From positions 682,001-746,000 of the forward strand of contig NZ_FNRV01000001.1 in the NCBI RefSeq assembly GCF_900105115.1: a stretch of 64,000 nt of DNA, given 5' to 3'. Positions within the stretch are counted from its first letter, which is position 1. Each line of letters begins with the position of its first letter. The notes beneath the pieces were generated by a model. The model made no database searches. It saw only the letters and a list, made by a program, of their open reading frames with translations, and was not told the DNA's origin. Below, piece after piece: positions 5,333 to 51,239 of this stretch. The DNA comes from Pseudomonas mohnii (lineage in GTDB: Bacteria; Pseudomonadota; Gammaproteobacteria; Pseudomonadales; Pseudomonadaceae). Made by a program: the position numbers and the translations under genes.

Positions 5333-7390
5333 TTACGCCTCTGGCAATGCCTGGAATGGCGCTTCTTTATCCGTACGCTCCTTGGTGCCCCAGGCCGCGA
5401 CACCGACCTTCAGCGCAAAGAACAGGATGCTGAACACTACGAACAGGAACAGCGCGGTCAGTGTTGCGTTGGTGTAGGCGTTGAAGATCACATGCTGCAT
5501 CTGTGTGATGTCCTTGGCCGGCGCCAGCACCTGGCCGTTGGCCAGCGCATCGCTGTACTTCTTGGCCAGTGCCAGGAAACCGATCGCCGGGTTGGCGTCG
5601 AACAGCTTGATGAAGCCGGCGGTGGTGGTGCAGATCAGCAACCACACGGCAGGCAACAGCGTGACCCAGACGTAACGCTGGCGTTTCATCTTGATCAGCA
5701 CGACGGTGCCGAGCATCAGCGCGATACCGGCCAGCATCTGGTTGGAGATGCCGAACAGTGGCCACAGGGTATTGATGCCACCCAGCGGATCGATCACGCC
5801 TTGATACAGCAGGTAACCCCACATCGCCACACAACCGGCGGTCGCGATCAGGTTGGCGGTCCAGGATTCCGTACGGCGCAGCGCCGGCACGAAGGACCCG
5901 AGCAAGTCCTGGAGCATGAAGCGACCGGCACGGGTACCGGCGTCGACCGCCGTCAGGATGAACAGCGCTTCGAACAGGATCGCGAAGTGGTACCAGAACG
6001 CCATGGTGTTTTCACCCGGCAGGACGTGGTGCAGGATCTGCGCGATACCGACCGCCAGGGTCGGCGCACCACCGGCACGGGCCAGGATCGTCGTTTCACC
6101 GATGTCCCTGGCGACCGCTTGCAGGGCGTCCGGTGTAATGGTGAAGCCCCAGCTGCTGACGGTTTGCGCGACGCTCACGGCATCGGCGCCCACCACGGCG
6201 GCCGGACTGTTCATGGCGAAATACACGCCCGGATCGATCACCGAAGCCGCGACCATGGCCATGATGGCGACGAAGGATTCCATCAGCATGCCGCCGTAAC
6301 CGATGTAACGGGCATGGCCTTCACTGGCGAGCAGTTTCGGTGTGGTGCCGGAAGCGATCAACGCGTGGAAACCGGACACCGCGCCACAGGCGATGGTGAT
6401 GAACAGGAACGGGAACAGACCGCCCTTCCACACCGGGCCGGTGCCGTCGATGAACTGGGTCAGTGCCGGCATTTTCAGCTCGGGCATGGTCACCAGGATG
6501 CCGATGGCCAGGGCCACGATGGTGCCGATTTTCAGGAAGGTCGACAGGTAATCGCGCGGTGCCAGGATCAGCCACACTGGCAGCACGGCAGCGACGAAGC
6601 CGTAGCCGATCAGCATCCAGGTGATCTGGATTCCCGTGAAGGTAAAGGCTTTGGCCCACACCGGATCGGCGGCAATCTGCCCGCCCAGCCAGATCGAACC
6701 CAGCAACAGCACTACGCCGATCACCGAAATTTCACCGATACGGCCCGGGCGGATGTAGCGCATGTAGATGCCCATGAACATCGCGATCGGGATGGTCGCC
6801 ATCACCGTGAACATGCCCCACGGGCTGTCCGCCAGGGCCTTGACCACGATCAGCGCCAGCACCGCGAGGATGATGATCATGATCAGGAAGCAGCCGAACA
6901 GCGCGATGGTCCCGGGAATGCGGCCCATTTCTTCACGGACCATATCGCCCAGGGAGCGGCCGTTGCGGCGGGTGGACATGAACAGGACCATGAAGTCCTG
7001 CACGGCGCCAGCCAGCACCACGCCGGCGATCAGCCACAGCGTGCCGGGCAGGTAGCCCATTTGCGCCGCCAGCACCGGACCGACCAGCGGACCCGCGCCC
7101 GCGATGGCCGCGAAGTGGTGACCGAAGAGCACGTGCTTGTTGGTCGGTACGTAGTCCAGACCATCGTTGTTGAGCACAGCGGGAGTGGCTCGATTGGGGT
7201 CGAGCTGCATCACTTTATTAGCGATGAACAGGCTGTAATAGCGATAAGCAACCAGATAGATAGCGACGGCTGCAACGACGATCCACAGGGCGTTGATCGC
7301 TTCGCCGCGGCGCAAGGCCACGACACTCAGCGCAACCGCTCCCAGGACGGCCACGGCAAACCAGGCAAGGTGTTTAGCCAGACGGGGCAT
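5333..7390 (-). CDS. cstA: CstA-family carbon starvation / pyruvate transporter
   Basis: Inner-membrane transporter of 685 residues, the usual length for CstA/BtsT. Many hydrophobic segments are visible, with [39 protein letters not shown] in the N-terminal part and [19 protein letters not shown] in the middle, both family landmarks. Family members import pyruvate or peptides under carbon limitation. The start at 7390 (MPRLAKHL) is preceded by CAGGAG at proper spacing; an upstream in-frame extension to 7489 has no support. It forms an operon with ybdD. A histidine kinase/response regulator pair reads away from it, and direct repeats at 7504-7536 suggest the two are linked in regulation. Confidence 0.9.
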
Positions 7391-7503
7391 ACAAGGTCTC
7401 CTGCCGACAGCCAGTGGACTGCGGCGGTAATTTTTATAATTGTGTCCGCAATGCGGAGCTGGCCCAATATCCCCGTATGTCGTCCACAAATAAATCCGCG
7501 TTA

Positions 7504-7536
7504 CTACGTACGTGTTTTCTACGTAGTTCTACGTAG
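7504..7536. promoter_or_regulatory. Triplicate CTACGTA repeats upstream of cstA
   Basis: CTACGTAC at 7504-7511, CTACGTAG at 7519-7526 and CTACGTAG at 7529-7536. Each contains the palindrome TACGTA, and the starts are 15 and 10 bp apart. The position about 115-145 bp upstream of the cstA start, between cstA and a NarL-type two-component system, fits a LuxR/NarL-type operator (inference). Confidence 0.55.
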
Positions 7537-7556
7537 ACGCCCCTCCCCCAATCCCC

Positions 7557-7580
7557 TGTAGGAGCGAGCCTGCTCGCGAT
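7557..7580 (+). repeat. REP element (single)
   Basis: TGTAGGAGCGAGCCTGCTCG followed by CGAT. It is a fluorescens-group REP half-site with an internal GCGAGC/GCTCGC hairpin, the same family as the pairs at 15400, 19689 and 49155. Confidence 0.7.
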
Positions 7581-7734
7581 GTACGTCAGGGCAACGCGGG
7601 CATTCAGACAACCCGCGTTATCGTTGACGCCCCTCCCGAGCAGGAGGTCTGCATGACCAGCGGACCTTTGGCTATCTCCTACAAGGTGCTTGTTTGGCAT
7701 ATGATCCCGAGCCTTCGCGGGGGCAGGAGTCAAG

Positions 7735-9096
7735 ATGCAGCTCAAACACAAAATCGTCGCGCTCGGGATTCTGCCGCTGGTACTGGCCATCGCCGTCATC
7801 TGTGCGCTGGTGATTTCCCTCAATCGCCAGCTGGGTGATCAACAGGCACAGCTGATCGAAGACAGCATTCTGGCGAGCAAGCGCGCGGAACTGAAAAACT
7901 ACGTGGAAATGGCGCAGAGCCTGATCGCGCCGCTGTACGACGACGGCCACGGAGACGCGCATGCCCAGCAACAGGTGCTCGAAGAACTGCGAAAGCTGAG
8001 CTTTGGCATCAACGGTTACTTCTTCGTTTATGACCACGAGGGCCGCAGCCTGATGCATGCGCGGCAATCGGATCTGGTAGGCCAATACCTGTGGGACATG
8101 AAAGACCCCCACGGTTTGCCGGTGATTCAGGCGCTGCTCAAAAGCGCGCAATCGGGCGAAGGTTTTCAACGCTACGCGTGGAACAAACCCTCCTCCGGCC
8201 AGGTGACCGACAAGCTCGCTTATGTGGTGATGCTCGACCGTTGGGGCTGGATGCTCGGCACCGGCATCTACCTTGAAGACGTCGAACGCGCTACCCAGCA
8301 GGCCCGTGCCGAAGTCGCCCAAGGCATTCGCAAGACGATGATGGCGATTGCCGTGGTCGCACTGGTGGCGGTGCTGTTCGTCTTCGCCACCGGCATGACC
8401 CTGAATGTCAGCGAGCATCGTCTGGCCGATAAAAAACTGCAGCGCCTGACCCAGCGCATTGTCAGCCTGCAGGAAGAAGAACGATCACGGGTTTCCCGCG
8501 AACTGCACGATGGCATCAGTCAGGTGCTGGTCTCGATCAAGTTTCAGTTCGAACTGGCCAGCCATGTTCTGGAGAACGGACAGGACAAAGGCCTGGGCAT
8601 TTTGAGAGACGCCACTGAACGCCTGGGCCAGGCGATTGGCGAAGTGCGCAGCCTCTCCCACGACCTGCGCTCGTCCTTGCTCGACACCCTGGGCCTGCCG
8701 GCCGCCATCGGCCAACTGGCCGCCGAATTCGAGCAACGCAGCGGGCTGACGGTGACGTACAACGACAACGAGTTCGACTGCCAGTTGGTCGATGGCGCCG
8801 CCGTTTCGCTGTTTCGTATCGTCCAGGAAGGCCTGACCAACATCGAACGCCACGCTCAGGCCAAAAACGTCTCCATCACCTTGCACGGTTCGGAAGAAAA
8901 CGTGCGCCTGACGGTGGTCGATGACGGTGTCGGTTTCAACGTCGCTCAGGTCGAGCGTCGTCACGCCGGCATTGGCTTGCGTAATATCCGCGAACGTGTC
9001 GAACATTTTGGCGGGCGTTTCGAGTTGATCTCGATGCCGGGAAGAAGCTCGCTGGATGTTCTGCTACCCATGAAACCCTCGGGCAGCCAACGCTGA
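7735..9096 (+). CDS. Cache-domain sensor histidine kinase (HisKA_3/NarX type)
   Basis: Membrane sensor kinase of 453 residues. Transmembrane helix 1 is at residues 8-28, a periplasmic single-Cache region at about 35-185 (GINGYFFVYDHEGRSLMH, WGWMLGTGIYLEDVE), and transmembrane helix 2 at about 201-223. The HisKA_3 dimerisation helix carries phospho-acceptor His258 in SRELHDGISQ. The HATPase has IVQEGLTNIERHA, DDGVGFN and GIGLRNIRERV. Cache sensors of this form often bind small carboxylates, which suits the divergent cstA transporter (inference). The ribosome binding site GCAGGAG precedes ATG 7735. The cognate regulator follows after 25 bp. Confidence 0.92.
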   Translation: MQLKHKIVALGILPLVLAIAVICALVISLNRQLGDQQAQLIEDSILASKRAELKNYVEMAQSLIAPLYDDGHGDAHAQQQVLEELRKLSFGINGYFFVYDHEGRSLMHARQSDLVGQYLWDMKDPHGLPVIQALLKSAQSGEGFQRYAWNKPSSGQVTDKLAYVVMLDRWGWMLGTGIYLEDVERATQQARAEVAQGIRKTMMAIAVVALVAVLFVFATGMTLNVSEHRLADKKLQRLTQRIVSLQEEERSRVSRELHDGISQVLVSIKFQFELASHVLENGQDKGLGILRDATERLGQAIGEVRSLSHDLRSSLLDTLGLPAAIGQLAAEFEQRSGLTVTYNDNEFDCQLVDGAAVSLFRIVQEGLTNIERHAQAKNVSITLHGSEENVRLTVVDDGVGFNVAQVERRHAGIGLRNIRERVEHFGGRFELISMPGRSSLDVLLPMKPSGSQR

Positions 9097-9121
9097 CTGC
9101 GCCCAAGAACAACAAGAGTGA

Positions 9122-9763
9122 ATGCCTACGATGACCCTGCCCTCCCCGATCCGCGTCGCCCTGGTTGACGATCACTCCCTGGTCCGTGACGGGATCAAGG
9201 CGCTGCTGGGCGTGATGGCGCCCCTGGAAGTGGTGGGTGAAGCCGAGAGCGGTGCCGAGGCCATCGAGATGGTCGGGCGCTGCCAGCCAGACCTGTTGCT
9301 GGTCGATATCAGCCTGCGGGACATGAACGGCCTTGAACTGACCCGCGTCCTGCGCAGTCAGTATCCGGCGCTCAAGGTGCTGGTGCTGAGCATGTACGAT
9401 AACTATGAGTACGTGAGTGAGTCGGTGCGTTCCGGTGCCAGCGGCTATGTGCTGAAAAACGCACCGTCACGGGAGATCATCGCCGCCATCGAGGCCATCA
9501 CCAGCGGCGGCACCTTCTACAGCGCCGAAATCGCCCAACGGCTCATCGCCGATAAAAACACCGACAATGAGCTGACCCCTCGTGAAAGCCAGGTGCTCTA
9601 CAAAATGGCCCAGGGCTTGAACAACAAGGAAATGGCACGAGAGCTGGACATCAGCGTGCGCACGGTGGAAACCCATCGCCTGAGCATCCGCCGCAAGCTC
9701 AACATCGACAAACCCGCGGCACTGGTCAAATACGCGATCGATCACGGGATCATTTCGCGCTAA
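9122..9763 (+). CDS. NarL/FixJ-family response regulator
   Basis: Cytoplasmic DNA-binding response regulator, 213 residues. The receiver domain carries Asp16/Asp17 (LVDDHS), phospho-acceptor Asp62 (LLVDISLRD) and a switch Lys in YVLKNAPS. The C-terminal LuxR helix-turn-helix reads LTPRESQVLYKMAQGLNNKE and SVRTVETHRLSIRRKL. It is partnered with the upstream Cache histidine kinase. It probably acts on the CTACGTA repeats upstream of cstA (inference). ATG 9131 (MTLPSP) is an alternative start; neither has a strong ribosome binding site. Confidence 0.93.
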   Translation: MPTMTLPSPIRVALVDDHSLVRDGIKALLGVMAPLEVVGEAESGAEAIEMVGRCQPDLLLVDISLRDMNGLELTRVLRSQYPALKVLVLSMYDNYEYVSESVRSGASGYVLKNAPSREIIAAIEAITSGGTFYSAEIAQRLIADKNTDNELTPRESQVLYKMAQGLNNKEMARELDISVRTVETHRLSIRRKLNIDKPAALVKYAIDHGIISR

Positions 9764-9833: not shown

Positions 9834-10049
9834 TCAGAGCTTGGCAATCGAGACTTCGGTGGATTTCACGAAGGCAATGACTTCGCTGCCCACTTTCAAC
9901 TCGAGGTCGCGCACCGAACGGGTGGTAATCACCGACGTGACAATGCCGGAGGCGGTTTGCACGTCGATTTCCGAGACCACTTCGCCCAGCAGAATTTCCT
10001 TGATGACGCCCTTGAACTGGTTACGGACGTTGATCGCTTTGATAGTCAT
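9834..10049 (-). CDS. Molbindin-like Mop/TOBE-domain protein
   Basis: A 71-residue single Mop domain: NVRNQFKGVIKEILLGEVVS, then EIDVQTASGIVTSVITTRSVRDLELKVGSEVIAFVKSTEVSIAK. RNQFKGxV and the Val/Ser/Thr-rich strands match stand-alone molbindins, which oligomerise and bind molybdate or tungstate anions in the cytoplasm. No mod transporter is adjacent. The AT-rich 265-bp region upstream contains an 11-bp perfect inverted repeat. Confidence 0.9.
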   Translation of the reverse strand: MTIKAINVRNQFKGVIKEILLGEVVSEIDVQTASGIVTSVITTRSVRDLELKVGSEVIAFVKSTEVSIAKL

Positions 10050-10161: not shown

Positions 10162-10314
10162 GGAGATATCAAGCCACCCTATTCAACGGCCTGAAACGTT
10201 GACTCCAATAAGAACAAAATAGAATTAATAAATACAAAAACAGTATTTATCGTTATAAAAATATCCGCGTACTCTCACTTCATCCCGTCATTCATCTACA
10301 CAGTGAAGTGCCCC

Positions 10315-10476
10315 ATGAATCCGACTGACAACCTCATCGACTTCGCCAGCTATCGCAAACGCAAACACGCTCAGCAACGGGCTCGGGCCATGTGGGAAAT
10401 GTATGCACGCAACGCCGGACTCCAGGCATTTCAATGGGTACAAGCTGCCCGGGCCACCGAGACGCGTCACGCGTGA
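10315..10476 (+). CDS. Small basic protein, 53 aa, coupled to the XRE-cupin gene
   Basis: ATG 10315 to TGA 10476 encodes MNPTDNLIDFASYRKRKHAQ, then QRARAMWEMYARNAGLQAFQ and WVQAARATETRHA. It is Arg/Ala-rich and probably helical, with no signal peptide. The TGA overlaps the GTG of the next gene (GTGA), the usual sign of translational coupling. No family is recognised. Support comes from codon usage and the overlap; a ribosome binding site is weak (GTGAAG). Confidence 0.55.
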   Translation: MNPTDNLIDFASYRKRKHAQQRARAMWEMYARNAGLQAFQWVQAARATETRHA

Positions 10477-11120
10477 ACGCGCATCAACCCTCGCGCTTCC
10501 TGATGAGCGCCGATGAACCGGTACTGGATTTGAATCACCTGGACCCACAGGATGAAGATGCCAACTGCGAGCGGGTCGCACAGAATCTTCAACGCCTGCG
10601 CAGCAAGCGCCTTCTGTCACTCGATGCCCTGGCCCGACAGTGCGGTGTAAGCCGGGCGATGCTCGCGCAGATCGAATCCGGCCGCAGCGTGCCGTCGATC
10701 AAAGTGCTGTGCAAAATCGCCAAGGGCTTGAAGGTATCGGTGGCCGCCTTTCTTGAGCATCGGGCCTTTGAAGGCGTGGCGGTATTGTCGGCCAGTCAGA
10801 GCAAGCGCCTGGTCAGCGCCAACGGCACTTTTGTCAGTCGCGCCCTGTTTCCCTACGACGTTGCGCGACAATCGGAATTTTACGAGTTGCGCTTGAGCCC
10901 GCTGGGCGAGGATCAGTCCGAGGGTCATGGTCCTGGTGTCCAGGAAAACCTGGTGGTGGCTCAGGGGGTGCTGGAAATCAGCGTCAACGATGAGCGCTAT
11001 CTGCTTTCCACCGGGGATTCGATTCTGTTTTATGCCGACCAGCCCCATCGCTATCGCAACCCCGCCGACAGTGAAGCGGTGGCGTACCTGGTGGTGACTT
11101 ACCCGGAACGCCTGGACTGA
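10473..11120 (+). CDS. XRE-family regulator with C-terminal cupin domain
   Basis: About 215 residues. The N-terminal helix-turn-helix (NLQRLRSKRLLSLDALARQC, then SRAMLAQIESGRSVPSIKVL) is followed by a C-terminal cupin_2 barrel (EGHGPGVQENLVVAQGVLEI, LLSTGDSILFYADQPHRYRN). Regulators of this design sense a small metabolite through the cupin and usually control nearby metabolic or transport genes. The start is taken as GTG 10473 because of the GTGA overlap with the small upstream ORF; ATG 10503 (MSADEPV) is an alternative. A second regulator of the same architecture lies at 52610-53185. Confidence 0.88.
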   Translation: MNAHQPSRFLMSADEPVLDLNHLDPQDEDANCERVAQNLQRLRSKRLLSLDALARQCGVSRAMLAQIESGRSVPSIKVLCKIAKGLKVSVAAFLEHRAFEGVAVLSASQSKRLVSANGTFVSRALFPYDVARQSEFYELRLSPLGEDQSEGHGPGVQENLVVAQGVLEISVNDERYLLSTGDSILFYADQPHRYRNPADSEAVAYLVVTYPERLD

Positions 11121-11160: not shown

Positions 11161-11171
11161 GATCGCCAATG

Positions 11172-11205
11172 AAAAGCCCGGCCAATTCGCATTGGCCGGG
11201 CTTTT
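11172..11205. terminator. Bidirectional terminator between XRE-cupin and Met-rich genes
   Basis: A perfect 15-bp stem, AAAAGCCCGGCCAAT (11172-11186) with ATTGGCCGGGCTTTT (11191-11205), and a TCGC loop. T tracts occur on both strands, so it serves both converging genes. Confidence 0.85.
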
Positions 11206-11224
11206 CAACGCTTGCCGCCAGGGA

Positions 11225-11734
11225 TCAGCAGGTGCAGCACATCAGTGGCATGCCATTGCAGCTCATCATCATCGGCATGCTGCAATCGTTCATCATTTTC
11301 ATCATCAGGGCGCAGCAGTTTTTCATCATGTCCATGTTCATGCCGGCCATCGGCATGATTTTGCACATCATGCCGTCGGCCATCATGGTGCATTCCATCA
11401 CGCACTTCATCGATGGCATCGGCATACCCATCATCGGCATTGGCATCATCATGTTCATCATCGGCATGGCCATGCTCGCCTGAGACATGCACATCATGCT
11501 CATGTTGCCGCAATGCATCATCATCGGCATGCCGCAGTTCATCATCATCTGCATCATTTCAGCGCTGTTCTTGAACATCGCCATGTCCATGCCAGCGGCC
11601 GGCATCATCTTGCACATCATGCCGTCGTCCATCATTTCGCAGGTCATGGTCGCCATCATCATCGGCATGCCCATCATCGGCATCATTGGCATGCTGGTGT
11701 TCATCGGCATTTGCATCGGCATGGCGTTCATCAT
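11225..11734 (-). CDS. Methionine/cysteine-rich protein (72 Met, 15 Cys in 169 aa)
   Basis: An extreme low-complexity protein: I count 72 Met (about 43%) and 15 Cys among 169 residues, with one His and no signal peptide. It is an internal tandem duplication. Repeat 1 contains CEMMDDGMMCKMMPAAGMDM followed by AMFKNSAEMMQMMMNCGMPM. Repeat 2 contains CTMMADGMMCKIMPMAGMNM followed by DMMKNCCALMMKMMNDCSMP. The C-terminus is MCCTC. ATG 11734 has AGGGAG (11744-11749) at good spacing, a plausible promoter upstream and a terminator downstream, so it is a real gene on this strand. Thioether- and thiolate-rich sequence suggests Cu(I)/Ag(I) binding or an oxidant sink (inference); no family is recognised. 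Confidence 0.8.
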   Translation of the reverse strand: MMNAMPMQMPMNTSMPMMPMMGMPMMMATMTCEMMDDGMMCKMMPAAGMDMAMFKNSAEMMQMMMNCGMPMMMHCGNMSMMCMSQASMAMPMMNMMMPMPMMGMPMPSMKCVMECTMMADGMMCKIMPMAGMNMDMMKNCCALMMKMMNDCSMPMMMSCNGMPLMCCTC

Positions 11735-11783
11735 GGTGTTGCTCCCTGAAGGATTGGATAGTTGGACGAAGCTGATGGGACGG

Positions 11784-11811
11784 ATTCTATGGAATCGGCC
11801 AGGCGCAACAA
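11784..11811 (-). promoter_or_regulatory. Candidate sigma-70 promoter of the Met-rich gene
   Basis: On the minus strand TTGTTG (11811-11806) and TAGAAT (11789-11784) are separated by 16 bp, giving a ~43-nt leader before ATG 11734. The -10 overlaps a short inverted repeat (GATTC-TATG-GAATC), a possible operator. Confidence 0.45.
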
Positions 11812-12013
11812 GCTGATGGTCAAACAGCCAAAGTCGATGTCAGGGCAGCTTTAACGAGGCAGGCAGGACGGATATTTCCGTTAGGACAAATGATTGTCTT
11901 CGATCGCGGACAGAATAAATGCGGCGACATGGATTTTGCGGCTATGGATATGCCCGTCGAGCCTATTCAAATAACCGAAAGAAATAATCGGTCTAAACGG
12001 GGCTGAATTTCAG

Positions 12014-24716: not shown

Positions 24717-25664
24717 TTAGTGGTTAAAAGACTGCTGGAACGAGTCGTCGATGATCGGTGCGGTGGCCAATTCGTTCGGCAGCGCCTTGACCTTGAACAG
24801 GAAGTCCGCGGTGCTCTGCAAGTCCTTGGCGGCCTGGGCATCCACCGGGCCGACGGACATGTGCGCCTGGCGCAACCAATGCCGGGAAACGTCCTGATCG
24901 AGGTTGGCTTTCTTCGCCCAGAGGTCAGCGTATTCGTCGGTGTGGTTGTCGACCCAGGCTCGGGCCTTTTTCAGGCGCCCCAGAAAGTCAGCGATGGCTT
25001 CCCGCTTGCTGTCGATCGAAGGCGTCGACGCGGCGATGGCGCTCAGACCCGGCATCAGGTTCTTGGCCGTGAGGATCGGCCGGGCGCCGGAAAACAGGAT
25101 TTGCTGGGAAATGTAGGGTTCCCAGACCGGGAAGGCATCGATGCTGCCCTGGGGCAATGCGGCGGCGGCATCGATCGGCATCAGTTTGATGAAGTCGACA
25201 TAGTCTTCCGGCAAGTCGGCTTTTTCCAGCGCACGCAAGGTCAATTGCTGGCTCCAGGCACCGGGCCAGTAAGCGACTTTCTTGCCCTTGAGATCAGCGA
25301 TGGTTTTTACCGGCGAATCCTTGGGCACCAGCAAGGCGATGGTGTCCGGGTTTTGCCGCGAGACACCGATCAGCTTGACCGGCGCCTGCTTGGCGGCAAG
25401 GAACAGGAACCCCGAATCGCCAAGAAAACCCAGGTCCAGCGCGCCGGTGCTCAACGCTTCCGCCAGCGGCGCGGCGGCCTGGAAGTGCTTCCAGTCAACG
25501 GTATACGGCGCGCCTTCCAGTACACCCGAGGCTTCCACCGAGGCGCGCACGTTGTAGTAGTTCTGATCGCCAATGTGCAGGACGACCGGCTCGGCGGCGT
25601 AGGCCAGTGGTGCGGCAAACAACGCGCTGGTCAACAGACCGCGCACGAATCGGGAGAGGTTCAT
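24717..25664 (-). CDS. ABC substrate-binding protein, SsuA/TauA/NMT1 type
   Basis: 315 residues with a Sec signal (MNLSRFVRGLLTSALFAAPL, cleavage after AYA). The mature protein shows LHIGDQNYYNVRASVEASGV, STGALDLGFLGDSGFLFLAA, VPKDSPVKTIADLKGKKVAY and IDAFPVWEPYIS, all typical of aliphatic-sulfonate/nitrate/taurine-type binding proteins. It is divergent from a second binding protein plus permease and ATPase at 25952-28556, to which it probably delivers an alternative substrate (inference). Confidence 0.88.
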   Translation of the reverse strand: MNLSRFVRGLLTSALFAAPLAYAAEPVVLHIGDQNYYNVRASVEASGVLEGAPYTVDWKHFQAAAPLAEALSTGALDLGFLGDSGFLFLAAKQAPVKLIGVSRQNPDTIALLVPKDSPVKTIADLKGKKVAYWPGAWSQQLTLRALEKADLPEDYVDFIKLMPIDAAAALPQGSIDAFPVWEPYISQQILFSGARPILTAKNLMPGLSAIAASTPSIDSKREAIADFLGRLKKARAWVDNHTDEYADLWAKKANLDQDVSRHWLRQAHMSVGPVDAQAAKDLQSTADFLFKVKALPNELATAPIIDDSFQQSFNH

Positions 25665-25951
25665 CGGGGGCTCCTTGAAAGTGATTGCGCTAGACCATAA
25701 CGCTCTTACAAGAAGCGTTTAAATTCTATTTATGCATAAGCTAATGACCCGCATTGCGTGGTGTTGGCTCAGCAACAGCAACTCAACAGAGTGTTTTCTG
25801 CCGTACATCCCGACTCCCCCACCTCAATGGCAAAGCCCTGATAAAGCGCGACTTCGAAAACATGGCACAGAGCCTGCAATATTCCTTTTATGCAGGATGC
25901 ACTCGAATAAATTATTTTTTTGGATATAAGAATCTCGCCAGGAGCCGCTAC
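25665..25951. promoter_or_regulatory. Divergent promoter region between two binding-protein genes
   Basis: A 287-bp gap with an AT-rich end near each gene. TTATGCATAA (25730-25739) is a perfect palindrome in front of the minus-strand gene, and a run of Ts (around 25913-25921) precedes the plus-strand start. CysB control is plausible for an SsuA-type system but no CysB box can be proven by eye. Confidence 0.4.
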
Positions 25952-26938
25952 ATGAAATCGATCGCCCGTTTTCCCGCCATCCGGTCTCTGCTGAGCGCCT
26001 GCGCCCTGGCCCTGAGCCTGCAACCCACGGCCCAGGCAGCTGAAGCACCGCCAGCCGAAGTGCACCTGGACTACGCCTATTACTCACCCGTCAGCCTGGT
26101 GCTCAAGCATTTCGGTTTTCTGGAGAAAGCCCTGCCGCAGACCAAGGTCAGCTGGGTGCTGAGCCAGGGCAGTAACCGCTCACTGGAATACCTCAACAGC
26201 GGCGGCGTCGACTTCGCCTCCTCTGCCAGCCTCGCCGCCGTGCTCAGTCGCGCCAATGGCAGTCCGATCAAATCGGTTTACGTCTATAGCCGCGCCGAGT
26301 GGACTGCGCTGGTGGTGCGCAAGGATTCACCGTACACAACCGTGGCCGACCTCAAAGGCAAGAAAATCGCCGCCACCAAAGGCACCGACCCTTACCTGTT
26401 CACCCTGCGCAGCCTGCAACAAGCCGGCCTGAACAAAGACGATGTGGAACTGGTGCACTTGCAGCACCCGGACGGTCGCGCCGCACTGGAAAAAGGTGAT
26501 GTCGACGCCTGGGCCGGGCTCGATCCGCACATGGCCGCCAGCCAGGTCCAGGCCGGCTCGCGCCTGCTGTACCGCAACACTGACTTCAACAGCTATGGCG
26601 TGGTCAGCGTCACTGACCGTTATGCCAACGAGCATCCACACACCATCGACACCGTGCTCAAGGCGTACGAACAGGCTCGGGAATGGGCGGTAAAAAATCC
26701 TGAAGAGCTGGCGAAACTGCTCGCCACCGAATCCGGGCTGCCGCTGGAAGTGGCCAGGCTGCAACTGTCGCGCACCGACCTGAGCAACCCGCAACTGACC
26801 GCCAAGGACGTGCTCGCCTCCAAGGCCGCCGCGCCGATTCTGGTCTCCGAAGAACTTGTGCGGCGCGGGGTGAATGTCGATCAAGTCATCGACCAACTGA
26901 TCGACACCGGCTTCAAAGAAACCGTCGCTCGCCAGTAA
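25952..26938 (+). CDS. ABC substrate-binding protein, aliphatic sulfonate type
   Basis: 328 residues with a signal peptide (AIRSLLSACALALSLQPTAQ, cleavage near AQA). Family motifs are YAYYSPVSLVLKHFGFLEKA, WVLSQGSNRSLEYLNSGGVD, DFASSASLAAVLSRANG, VVRKDSPYTTVADLKGKKIA and DAWAGLDPHMA. AGGAG (25940-25944) fixes ATG 25952. It is first gene of a three-gene importer operon; only about a quarter of its residues look similar to the divergent binding protein. Confidence 0.9.
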   Translation: MKSIARFPAIRSLLSACALALSLQPTAQAAEAPPAEVHLDYAYYSPVSLVLKHFGFLEKALPQTKVSWVLSQGSNRSLEYLNSGGVDFASSASLAAVLSRANGSPIKSVYVYSRAEWTALVVRKDSPYTTVADLKGKKIAATKGTDPYLFTLRSLQQAGLNKDDVELVHLQHPDGRAALEKGDVDAWAGLDPHMAASQVQAGSRLLYRNTDFNSYGVVSVTDRYANEHPHTIDTVLKAYEQAREWAVKNPEELAKLLATESGLPLEVARLQLSRTDLSNPQLTAKDVLASKAAAPILVSEELVRRGVNVDQVIDQLIDTGFKETVARQ

Positions 26939-27002
26939 ATACCTGCCAACGGTCAAGACTGAATCCGCGCCCGCCGCGGATTCGTCATCACCGGAGAATC
27001 CC

Positions 27003-27839
27003 ATGTCCAGCAAAACCAAAAACCTGCCAGCCCACTTGGCATTGCCTGCTCCGCGTCGGCTGAACAATGCCTGGCGCCTGCGCCTCAAGGCGCTGGCGCT
27101 GCCGGCGCTGATCATCCTCGTGCTGGAAATCGTCGTACGTGTCGGTTGGCTGCCGTCCTACCAGATGCCGGCGCCGAGCGACATTGCCCTGACCTTGAGG
27201 GATCTGGCCGAGGGTGCCTTGTGGAAGCACATCAGCGCCAGCCTGTTGCGCGTCTTGCTCGGTTTCGCCATCGGCGCCAGCCTGGCCCTGGTATTCGCTG
27301 CCTGGGTCGGGCTGAGCCGGGAAGCCGAAGCCTGGCTGGAACCGACATTCGCCGGCCTGCGTTCGATTCCCAGCCTGGCCTGGGTACCGTTGTTGTTGCT
27401 GTGGCTGGGGATCGACGAGACTTCGAAAATTGTCCTGATTGCCATCGGCGCGTTCTTTCCGGTGTACCTCAATGGCGTCGCGGCGATCCGCAATATCGAC
27501 CGCAAACTGGTGGAGGTCGGGCAGATGTACGGTTTCAGCCACCGCCGACTGGTGCAGCGGATTCTGCTGCCCGCCGCCCTGCCCGGCCTGTTCACCGGGC
27601 TGCGCAGCGGCATGAGTCTGGCGTGGATGTTTCTGGTGGCCGCCGAGTTGATCGCGGCAACCAAAGGCCTGGGTTATTTGCTCAGTGACGGCCGCGAGAC
27701 TTCCCGCCCGGACATCGTTCTGGCGGCAATCATTGTACTGGCGCTGCTGGGCAAGCTCAGCGACGGCCTGCTGGCCAGCCTGGAGAAACGTTTCCTGGCC
27801 TGGCGCGACACTTTCAACGGCCACAGCGCAGAGGATTGA
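27003..27839 (+). CDS. ABC permease, SsuC/TauC type
   Basis: 278 residues, about six transmembrane helices (ALALPALIILVLEIVVRVGW; ISASLLRVLLGFAIGASLAL; LAWVPLLLLWLGIDETSKIV). The coupling loop is EVGQMYGFSHRRLVQRILLPAALPGLFTGLR, matching the EAA motif. The downstream ATPase starts 3 bp after the stop. It transports the ligand delivered by the adjacent binding protein(s). Confidence 0.92.
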   Translation: MSSKTKNLPAHLALPAPRRLNNAWRLRLKALALPALIILVLEIVVRVGWLPSYQMPAPSDIALTLRDLAEGALWKHISASLLRVLLGFAIGASLALVFAAWVGLSREAEAWLEPTFAGLRSIPSLAWVPLLLLWLGIDETSKIVLIAIGAFFPVYLNGVAAIRNIDRKLVEVGQMYGFSHRRLVQRILLPAALPGLFTGLRSGMSLAWMFLVAAELIAATKGLGYLLSDGRETSRPDIVLAAIIVLALLGKLSDGLLASLEKRFLAWRDTFNGHSAED

Positions 27840-27842
27840 GCC

Positions 27843-28556
27843 ATGACCGAACACTTGCTGGATATTCGCGTCGAGCGCAAAACCTTCGCCGCCACCACCG
27901 TGCTCAACAACATCCACTTGCAGTTGCTGCCTCGGGAAACCGTCAGCCTGCTCGGTCCCAGCGGTTGCGGCAAAAGCACCTTGTTGCGGATCGTCGCCGG
28001 ACTGGAGAAAGACTTCCAAGGCGAACTGCGCAGCCGCGCCGGTGAGGTCGCGTTCGTGTTCCAGGAACCACGCCTGATGCCCTGGCTGACGGTTGAACAG
28101 AACATCGGTTTCAGCGCCGACAACCATTACGACAAGGCCTGGGTCGCGCAGTTGATCGAGGAAGTCGGCCTCGGTGGCTTTGCCCAGACCCTGCCCAAGG
28201 CCCTTTCCGGCGGCATGGCGCAACGGGTGGCCATCGCCCGAGGCCTCTATTCGCGACCGCAAGTGTTGCTGCTCGACGAACCTTTCAGCGCGGTAGACGC
28301 CTTTACCCGCATGAAGCTGCAGGACTTGCTGCTACAACTGGCCGAGCGCCACGCCATCGCCTTGCTGTTGGTGACCCATGATGTCGATGAAGCGCTGTAC
28401 CTCAGTGATCGCGTGTTGGTCATGGACAATCGCCCCAGCAGCATTCGCCAGGAGCTGGCGGTAGAACTGGCGCATCCCCGTGACCGCCGGGACCCGCTGC
28501 TGGCGCAACTCAAAGCGTTGTCGTTGACCGAGTTGCAGCGGGCGCATGTGATCTGA
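27843..28556 (+). CDS. ABC ATPase, SsuB/TauB type
   Basis: 237 residues. Walker A is GPSGCGKSTLL, the Q-loop VFQEPRLMPW, the signature LSGGMAQRVAIARGL, Walker B VLLLDEPFSAVDAFTR and the H-loop LLVTHDVDEALYL. It energises the importer of 25952-27839. RVERKTFAATTVLNN at the start replaces the usual strand 1 but the fold is complete. It is last gene of the unit. Confidence 0.95.
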   Translation: MTEHLLDIRVERKTFAATTVLNNIHLQLLPRETVSLLGPSGCGKSTLLRIVAGLEKDFQGELRSRAGEVAFVFQEPRLMPWLTVEQNIGFSADNHYDKAWVAQLIEEVGLGGFAQTLPKALSGGMAQRVAIARGLYSRPQVLLLDEPFSAVDAFTRMKLQDLLLQLAERHAIALLLVTHDVDEALYLSDRVLVMDNRPSSIRQELAVELAHPRDRRDPLLAQLKALSLTELQRAHVI

Positions 28557-49359: not shown

Positions 49360-50763
49360 CTAGGCAGACACGACTTTCTTCTCCTGCTGACGCAACGCCG
49401 CCAGATCGCGATAGCCACTGCCTGGATGGATCTCGGGCAATCGCGGCCCTTCACCAAACAGCTTCTCGCGCAAGGTGCCGGGGGCGTATTCGGTCTTGTA
49501 GACCCCGCGTTTCTGCAACTCGGGCACCAGCAATTCCACGGCATCGATGAAGGTTTCGTGGGTCAGCGCATACGCCAGGTTGAACCCGTCCACGTCTGTC
49601 TCTTCAACCCATTCCTGCAACAGGTCGGCCACGGTTTCCGGGCTGCCGACGAACAACGGCCCAAAGCCGCCAATGCCGACCCAGTCGGCCAGTTCGTTGG
49701 GGGTCCAGACTTTGTTCGGATCGGCACTGGAGAACGCCTCCACTGCGGATTGAATGGCGTTGGTGTGCACATGCTTGAGCGGTTCATCGGGTTTGAACTG
49801 GCTGAAATCGATGCCGGTCCAGCCGGAAATCAAGGCCATGGCACCTTCGTAACTGACCCAGGTCTTGTACTCTTCGAACTTGGCCTTGGCCTTGGCATCG
49901 GTCTCGCCGAGGATCACCGTTTGCAGGTTGAAGATGAGGATCTTCCTCGGATCGCGCCCCGCCTCCGCCGCACGCCGGCGGATATCGGCAACGGTTTTCT
50001 TCAGCAGCACTTTCGACGGTGCGGCGACGAACACGCACTCGGCATGTTCAGCGGCGAATTGTTTGCCGCGGCTCGAGGCGCCGGCCTGATACAGCACCGG
50101 GGTCCTTTGCGGCGAGGGCTCGCAGAGATGAATACCCGGCACCTGGAAGTGTTTGCCCACGTGCTGGATTTCGTGAATCTTGCTCGGATCGCTGAACACC
50201 CGCCGCGCACGATCGCGCAGGATGGCGCCCTCTTCCCAGCTGCCTTCCCACAGTTTGTAGCAAACCTCCAGGTATTCCTCGGCGTAGTCGTAACGGGCGT
50301 CGTGTTCGGTCTGGGATTTCTGCCCGAGGTTCTTCGCGCCGCTCTCCAGGTACGAAGTGACGATGTTCCAGCCCGCGCGCCCCTTGGTCAGGTGATCGAG
50401 GGTCGACAGGCGGCGGGCGAACGGATACGGATGCTCGAACGACAGCGACGCGGTCAGGCCAAAGCCCAAATGTTCGGTCACCAGCGCCATCGGCGGGATC
50501 AGTTGCAACGGATCGTTGACCGGCACTTGCGCGGCCTGGCGGATCGCCGCATCACCATTGCCGTTGTAAACGTCGTAGATACCCAGTACGTCGGCGATGA
50601 ACAAACCGTCGAACTTGCCGCGCTCGAGGATTTTCGCCAGGTCGGTCCAGTATTCCAGGTCCTTGTACTGCCATGAGCGGTCCCGTGGGTGTGCCCACAA
50701 TCCCGGCGACTGATGGCCGACGCAGTTCATGTCAAAGGCGTTGAGACGAATTTCACGGGCCAT
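49360..50763 (-). CDS. NtaA/SnaA/DmoA-family FMN-dependent monooxygenase
   Basis: 467 residues, luciferase-like TIM barrel of the NtaA/DmoA type. Characteristic text: LNAFDMNCVGHQSPGLWAHP, YWTDLAKILERGKFDGLFIADVLGIYDVY, LSFEHPYPFARRLSTLDHLTKGRAGWNIVTSYL, QTEHDARYDYAEEYLEVCYKLWEGSW, VLYQAGASSRGKQFAAEHAE, and GGFGPLFVGSPETVADLLQEW. It needs FMNH2 from a separate reductase. Substrates in this family include nitrilotriacetate, dibenzothiophene sulfone and dimethyl sulfide. ATG 50763 overlaps the previous stop by 1 base (TGATG) with AAGGAAG upstream. Confidence 0.9.
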   Translation of the reverse strand: MAREIRLNAFDMNCVGHQSPGLWAHPRDRSWQYKDLEYWTDLAKILERGKFDGLFIADVLGIYDVYNGNGDAAIRQAAQVPVNDPLQLIPPMALVTEHLGFGLTASLSFEHPYPFARRLSTLDHLTKGRAGWNIVTSYLESGAKNLGQKSQTEHDARYDYAEEYLEVCYKLWEGSWEEGAILRDRARRVFSDPSKIHEIQHVGKHFQVPGIHLCEPSPQRTPVLYQAGASSRGKQFAAEHAECVFVAAPSKVLLKKTVADIRRRAAEAGRDPRKILIFNLQTVILGETDAKAKAKFEEYKTWVSYEGAMALISGWTGIDFSQFKPDEPLKHVHTNAIQSAVEAFSSADPNKVWTPNELADWVGIGGFGPLFVGSPETVADLLQEWVEETDVDGFNLAYALTHETFIDAVELLVPELQKRGVYKTEYAPGTLREKLFGEGPRLPEIHPGSGYRDLAALRQQEKKVVSA

Positions 50764-51239
50764 CAAACGGCTTCCTTTATGGAGATTGGAGAACTTGGGG
50801 GATGAATGCCATTGAGGCGGAAGTTGCCGATGACCTGGAGCTTCCAGCGCAACGGGTCGTGCAGCGAACCGGGCAGCGCAGTGCGTTGACCGGTGAGTTC
50901 GAATTCGGCGTTGCTCGCGGTGCTCAGGGCTTCGGCGCTGGCCAGGTGCGCTTCGGCAATGGCGATGCGTGTTTCGGTGGCGTCTTCATGGCTGTTCACA
51001 AAGTCTTCGGCGCGTTCGAGCAGTGCGGCAGCGACTTCGATGCGGATCTGTACGTCGCCGAAACGGCTGATCACGTAAGGGTCTTCGCTGGCGTTGGTCA
51101 AGCCGCTGCCGGCCCAGGGTTGAGCCTGTGTGCGGACGAAACGCAGGGTGGCCTCGAGCAGGCTGCGGGCGTTGTGCAGGTCGTGCTGACTTTTGGACAA
51201 GGGTTGTTCGGTAGCAATCGGTTGGGTCAAGGCGTTCAT
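50763..51239 (-). CDS. Stand-alone acyl-CoA-dehydrogenase C-terminal domain protein
   Basis: 158 residues. The core (ARSLLEATLRFVRTQAQPWA to ALLERAEDFVNSHEDATETRIAIAEAHLASAEALSTASNAEF) and the ending ELTGQRTALPGSLHDPLRWKLQVIGNFRLNGIHPP correspond to the C-terminal four-helix domain of the adjacent 400-aa protein (LFELAGTRSVLGKY ... LHDPARWKYHLIGNYLLNGVKP). The N-terminal and FAD-contact middle domains are missing. It lies between the monooxygenase and the full-length paralogue, overlapping the former by 1 base, so it is co-expressed. GAGGAGC precedes the ATG. Role unknown; a partner subunit is possible. Confidence 0.75.
   Translation of the reverse strand: MNALTQPIATEQPLSKSQHDLHNARSLLEATLRFVRTQAQPWAGSGLTNASEDPYVISRFGDVQIRIEVAAALLERAEDFVNSHEDATETRIAIAEAHLASAEALSTASNAEFELTGQRTALPGSLHDPLRWKLQVIGNFRLNGIHPPSSPISIKEAV

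Follow-up and report, generated by a model that had tools for sequence, protein, structure and literature searches.

Bacteria keep reserves of carbon, phosphate, nitrogen and elemental sulfur; to our knowledge, no bacterial protein reserve for sulfur amino acids has been described, and the literature searched on sulfur storage and on methionine-rich and XRE-cupin proteins contained no such reserve among the matches listed. The methionine-rich seed storage proteins of plants (maize, Arabidopsis) possibly follow the principle considered below, protein-bound methionine as a sulfur reserve, at a methionine content far below the ~41% of the family described here. Among other proteins of related composition, MrpX is a periplasmic methionine-rich polypeptide that scavenges oxidants in redox defence, while metallothioneins, Csp proteins and the methionine motifs of CopA and CopC carry methionine and/or cysteine clusters able to bind soft metals. 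The archaeal thioferrate nanoparticle protein IssA has been linked to iron-sulfur storage (PMC5524996); by description it is set apart, storing inorganic iron and sulfur, whereas the protein studied here would carry sulfur in its polypeptide.

On the regulatory side, XRE-cupin proteins are known as metabolic regulators, and those of Pseudomonas aeruginosa have been described as local repressors (PMC7901475). Escherichia coli SutR (YdcN) is named as a regulator of sulfur utilisation in a title given in the reference list of PMC8464067, and the Vibrio cholerae structure 1Y9Q is described with D-methionine in its cupin pocket (PMC7901475), a ligand that may not be the natural one. No report of SutR or 1Y9Q paired with a methionine- and cysteine-rich (Met/Cys-rich) protein was found in the literature looked up. 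Here we describe a locus in which a regulator of the same architecture, XRE plus cupin, converges on the gene for such a protein. The window, i.e., the whole stretch of DNA analysed, comprises 64,000 nucleotides of Pseudomonas mohnii, and coordinates refer to it unless another locus is named.

A family of two-unit proteins rich in methionine and cysteine

The gene and its two units are placed as follows.

11225–11734, minus strand: gene of the two-unit Met/Cys-rich protein (169 aa), supported by its open reading frame, relatives, dN/dS and unit alignment
11486–11659, minus strand: unit 1 (residues 26–83), predicted beta-beta-alpha-beta-beta (AlphaFold and unit alignment)
11234–11407, minus strand: unit 2 (residues 110–167), predicted beta-beta-alpha-beta-beta (AlphaFold and unit alignment), the CCTC protein end lying just after it

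The initial annotation had counted 72 methionines and 15 cysteines among the 169 residues, and our recount gave the same numbers (42.6 and 8.9%, respectively); about half of the residues are thus methionine or cysteine, and sulfur accounts for 14.6% of the protein mass. Over 79 copies, methionine ranges from 36.9 to 43.5% and the number of cysteines from 14 to 17, while isoleucine, leucine, valine, phenylalanine, tryptophan and tyrosine combined make up 3.4% of residues in the family. The proposal that the protein arose by tandem duplication was borne out: residues 24–85 and 107–169 match at 36 of 59 aligned positions, and the two units agree in 16 of the 32 columns where neither has methionine. 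Their alignment scores 186 against a mean of 56.8 (sd 8.7) for composition-preserving shuffles, and since none of 2000 shuffles scored as high, the duplication is real and no artefact of composition.

The comparisons rest on 80 loci, the best 80 of 90 relatives and thus a best-match set rather than a random sample; 79 are titled Pseudomonas and one is a metagenome bin titled Paucimonas (L100). Together with the window they gave 81 sequences and, as the start pattern missed L031 and L069, 79 copies of the gene. In a set of 298 Pseudomonas genomes, 63 carry the gene, a patchy distribution; an internal stop was seen in none of them (in one carrier, a 1150-contig assembly, the match is partial and lies where a contig ends). 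The median dN/dS is 0.23 (3078 pairs of the 79 copies), which indicates purifying selection, and it is 1.05 in the antisense frame over the same copies. Given the absence of stops in 63 of 298 genomes and this difference in dN/dS, a chance ATG repeat, which the earlier reading had already argued against, is ruled out. The antisense frame is an ORF of 185 histidine-rich residues (11192–11749, plus strand) that mirrors the ATG codons of the Met/Cys-rich gene, and it is unlikely to be a gene because of its dN/dS. Conservation is strong at the cysteines, glycines, prolines and C-terminal CCTC; 13 of 16 cysteine columns and 44 of 73 methionine columns are at least 97% conserved. Relatives keep both an intact frame and the cysteine spacing, as the initial annotation had asked of homologues.

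Neither Pfam nor NCBIfam families matched the protein at E up to 10, and no PDB sequence did so in a profile search at the same threshold; by these searches it belongs to none of the metallothionein, Csp or copper Met-motif families. The literature on methionine-rich proteins, sulfur storage and XRE-cupins held no account of the family among the matches listed, and the view that it is an undescribed family, selected and with conserved cysteine spacing, is supported. With a threshold of E 1e-3 the profile search returned 228 proteins, although these E-values are soft because the composition of the family is biased; the best 120 of them include proteins from Devosia, Bradyrhizobium, Rhizobium, Shinella, Chelatococcus, Tianweitania, Sorangium and Polyangium. 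The gene was found in 8 of 398 genomes drawn from the phylum and in 5 of 347 drawn from the order of one distant carrier (G491), likeness to Bradyrhizobium and Devosia proteins suggesting that this order is Hyphomicrobiales.

An AlphaFold model built with 28 sequences (mean pLDDT 71.2, pTM 0.61) predicts two beta-beta-alpha-beta-beta units, with a disordered N-terminus and linker. Ten-residue pLDDT blocks reach 80–89 between residues 31 and 80 of unit 1, falling at its edges, and 81–88 from residue 111 in unit 2; for a single-unit relative the model, which is of low confidence (mean 57.9), has its elements arranged in the same order. Judging from the model, the protein seems to fold, and methionine must make up most of any core, since the other large hydrophobic residues are so scarce. 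Inspection by eye revealed no signal peptide, and the protein is probably cytoplasmic.

The convergent XRE-cupin regulator and its operon

The regulator pairing, the small ORF and the conserved upstream element described in this section are new relative to the initial annotation. The features are listed below.

10227–10250, plus strand: inverted repeat AATAAATAC-N7-GTATTTAT, read from the sequence, upstream of the small ORF/regulator operon
10315–10476, plus strand: small conserved ORF (53 aa, motif N-[LVI]-I-D-[LF]), in 69 of 78 loci with the regulator
10473–11120, plus strand: SutR-like transcription regulator of the XRE-cupin type, facing the Met/Cys-rich gene tail to tail, with both HTH_3 and Cupin_2 exceeding their cut-offs
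11170–11207, no strand assigned: perfect inverted repeat of 17 bp in the space separating the two convergent genes, a GC stem flanked by AAAA/TTTT
11742–11747, minus strand: Shine-Dalgarno sequence AGGGAG of the Met/Cys-rich gene, read from the sequence
11784–11812, minus strand: conserved core promoter, CTTG...TAGAAT, with TAGAAT in 77 of 79 loci
11944–11998, minus strand: conserved upstream element GTTTAGACCGATTATTTC...GGTTATTT...ATATCCAT, with exact ATATCCAT in 64 of 79 loci

The regulator has the XRE-cupin architecture (HTH_3, 46.4 bits against a cut-off of 23; Cupin_2, 45.6 bits against 27.2) and shares 32% identity with E. coli SutR over 177 residues (E 3e-29). With SutR as the query, it is the best match in its own genome (3.6e-21, the next being 5.7e-14), a comparison made in one direction only, and 1Y9Q is the closest solved structure by sequence (E 1e-24). 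Scored at E up to 1e-60 in the 298 genomes, it is present in 62 of the 63 carriers of the Met/Cys-rich gene versus 3 of the 235 non-carriers; the single carrier without it is the partial gene at a contig end mentioned above. All but one of the 62 pairs (61) are convergent on one contig, 57 of those within 500 nt and with a median gap of 76 nt, the others lying 0.9 to 6.7 kb apart; in G053 the two genes are on different contigs. Clustering of the ORFs around the Met/Cys-rich gene, for which 79 of the 80 loci could be used (L044 lacking an anchor), placed the regulator in 73, always on the opposite strand and at a median distance of 75 nt (6.2 kb at most); the second commonest neighbour cluster occurred in 28. 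A sister genus has the regulator in three of three genomes, convergent in two (G354, G358), while in the third, G441, the Met/Cys-rich gene sits at the edge of one contig and the regulator is found on a second. All five distant genomes have the pair, with a regulator identity of 48–49% and 52–163 nt between the convergent stop codons. Hence the pairing of the two genes is near-obligate, a conclusion that we regard as close to certain.

The three genomes with a regulator only are each particular. In G182 the regulator has an internal stop and a start at residue 31, and its locus (L130) is a decayed module with no Met/Cys-rich gene found and transposase-like ORFs nearby (by eye), which suggests that the two genes were lost together. 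In G197 (locus L131) the regulator is 54% identical and adjoins an NtaA/DmoA-family monooxygenase and ABC-transporter-like ORFs (the latter by eye), with no Met/Cys-rich gene. In G272 the regulator lies at a contig start in a 1200-contig assembly.

Upstream of the regulator, the TGA of the small ORF overlaps the regulator's GTG start (GTGA, 4 nt). A pattern scan covered 90 sequences, L130 and L131 having been excluded beforehand for lack of a Met/Cys-rich gene, and found the regulator in 78; all 78 had a convergent Met/Cys-rich gene (69 within 300 nt), and the small ORF preceded the regulator in 69. Among the 12 misses are loci at the end of a contig and failures of the pattern; in L133, for example, both regulator and small ORF are visible. 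No family matches were found for the small ORF, whose median dN/dS is 0.44 (1188 filter-passing pairs, 63 copies).

The earlier reading had taken a ribosome binding site, a promoter and a terminator as support for expression. Generic sigma-70 and terminator scans called neither a promoter nor a terminator for the Met/Cys-rich gene; what stands are the Shine-Dalgarno sequence, the conserved TAGAAT and the inverted repeat between the genes, a putative terminator. In the window the core promoter reads TTGTTG-N16-TAGAAT, with CTTG ahead of TAGAAT, and of the 58 non-redundant rows listed, 57 have TAGAAT at 48–57 nt ahead of the start codon. The repeat at 11170–11207 is likely a two-way terminator, since on both strands TTTT comes directly after its GC stem. 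Farther upstream, the loci that have the exact ATATCCAT 8-mer carry it, with one exception, about 210–219 nt ahead of the start codon, and the TTAGA...ATAG part of the element has a single match in its own genome at up to three mismatches. The inverted repeat at 10227–10250 is a candidate autoregulatory operator, of the kind that regulators bind; no operator common to the promoters of the Met/Cys-rich gene and the regulator operon was found.

Neighbouring genes and rival readings

The neighbourhoods were searched with a panel of 14 sulfur proteins taken from the distant loci and L131, of which 13 were counted (100 bits, half coverage). Organosulfur genes occur near 25 of the 80 loci versus 2 of 40 stretches picked at random from related genomes (p 0.0009), a figure inflated by related loci, the 25 falling into 12 contexts once loci with a protein in common (60% identity) are counted together; for all 13 panel proteins the counts are 25 of 80 and 3 of 40 (p 0.003). 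The other 55 loci had no panel gene on the stretch searched, and organosulfur panel genes were found in none of the three sister-genus loci. When ten representatives were checked against NCBIfam, seven passed the cut-off for the SsuA family, SsuD or NtaA/DmoA, two matched SsuD below it and one (L035) had no match. Panel genes are present at five of five distant loci versus 1 of 19 random stretches, a comparison that is circular because the panel was drawn from those loci, so that only the Pseudomonas comparison is independent.

Several gene names at the distant loci are best matches below cut-off. L133 has TauA, an SsuA-family protein and SsuD above cut-off (SsuC and TauC below), L126 has DmoA above (SsuA-like and mercaptopyruvate sulfurtransferase-like proteins below), L135 the serine O-acetyltransferase model EpsC above (cysE just under), L134 CBS and CGL below, and L125 the methionine sulfoxide reductase MsrB (TIGR00357) above, with cystine transporter parts below.

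The window itself contains sulfonate-type ABC transporter genes at 24717–28556, with two SsuA-family binding proteins above cut-off and an SsuC-like permease and SsuB-like ATPase as best matches below it; this nearest sulfonate transporter is ~13 kb from the module. An NtaA/DmoA-family FMN monooxygenase above cut-off is encoded at 49360–50766 (minus strand). On the other side, a CstA-family protein is encoded next to a histidine kinase with a Cache domain and a response regulator of the LuxR type (5333–9763), and a small TOBE-domain protein, possibly molybdate binding, is encoded just upstream of the regulator operon (9834–10049, minus strand).

Sulfur physiology is the best reading of the module, since a SutR-like regulator is joined to a protein half of whose residues contain sulfur and organosulfur genes are often near; we consider a sulfur role of some kind probable. 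The initial annotation had instead leaned towards Cu(I) or Ag(I) binding or the absorption of oxidants, which our results do not support, given the SutR-like partner, the enrichment of organosulfur genes and the lack of clear enrichment of copper ATPases.

That the protein is a cytoplasmic soft-metal buffer resembling metallothionein, binding Cu(I), Ag(I) or similar ions through cysteine and methionine while the regulator answers a related stress, appears unlikely. Methionine and cysteine are established soft-metal ligands, and the conservation of their columns, the cysteine pairs and the C-terminal CCTC would suit such a buffer; the methionine, however, is far in excess of binding-site needs, and copper-ATPase-like genes occur at 2 of 80 loci versus 0 of 40 random stretches (distant genomes: 0 of 5 versus 1 of 19). 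Unlike metallothioneins, Csp proteins and CopA/CopC, the protein has no Pfam or NCBIfam match, and its partner belongs to a class described as metabolic regulators (PMC7901475).

We find it quite unlikely that the protein acts as an oxidant sink like MrpX, with methionine (oxidised to sulfoxide) and cysteine absorbing HOCl, H2O2 or other oxidants and methionine sulfoxide reductases recycling it. The composition would serve this purpose, and at L125 MsrB is encoded two ORFs upstream of the Met/Cys-rich gene (8191–8592 of that locus), but the panel detected MsrB at none of the 80 loci and the regulator resembles SutR. Moreover, the protein differs from MrpX in lacking an export signal visible by eye, in its conserved cysteines and in its XRE-cupin partner.

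It is improbable, in our estimate, that the protein is instead a regulatory partner or gauge, its synthesis and breakdown reporting methionine supply or the protein itself binding the regulator, with storage incidental. Near-perfect co-occurrence, strong conservation and a mirror-tree correlation of 0.76 between the two proteins (71 loci) suggest a specific interaction; shared inheritance alone, however, yields co-divergence, and no further target gene is conserved beside the pair. Finally, a selfish or toxin-antitoxin-like pair maintained by linkage is very improbable: the distribution is patchy, the genomic sites vary and XRE proteins can be antitoxins, but the genes are convergent rather than in an operon, the regulator carries a cupin sensor, and no relative was found in plasmids, phages or viral contigs (some may be hidden by the BLAST low-complexity filter).

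A possible reserve of reduced sulfur

Within a sulfur role, we tentatively propose a sulfur-responsive module of three genes, in which the small ORF and the regulator form one operon and the Met/Cys-rich gene converges on it, and whose protein may store or buffer reduced sulfur. The cupin domain would probably sense a sulfur metabolite (methionine, cysteine or a precursor), and the regulator would probably set transcription of the Met/Cys-rich gene, in a direction that we can only infer. The protein would be synthesised when sulfur is plentiful, thereby banking or buffering it in reduced form, and its proteolysis would free sulfur amino acids when sulfur is short. A reserve or buffer fits the composition best because methionine replaces nearly all other hydrophobic residues, a pattern that selection for sulfur content explains more readily than selection for surface chemistry does. 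Against storage, the strong conservation and apparent fold imply tighter constraint than a pure store needs; since this conservation and the cysteine motifs would also be compatible with metal binding or redox chemistry, we hold storage as the purpose to be possible, and somewhat short of an even chance.

In its fullest form the proposal is more doubtful. The module may be a bacterial sulfur bank, that is, a folded cytoplasmic protein made mostly of methionine and cysteine, in its core as on its surface, under SutR-like control and drawn down in sulfur famine. Its three genes would move as a cassette within Pseudomonas and a second order of proteobacteria, and rhizobia and myxobacteria would hold Met/Cys-rich relatives. 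The near-obligate pairing with the regulator makes the function of the Met/Cys-rich protein testable by single gene removals. Moreover, a protein with methionine at nearly every hydrophobic position that is nevertheless predicted to fold raises the question of how simple a protein core can become.
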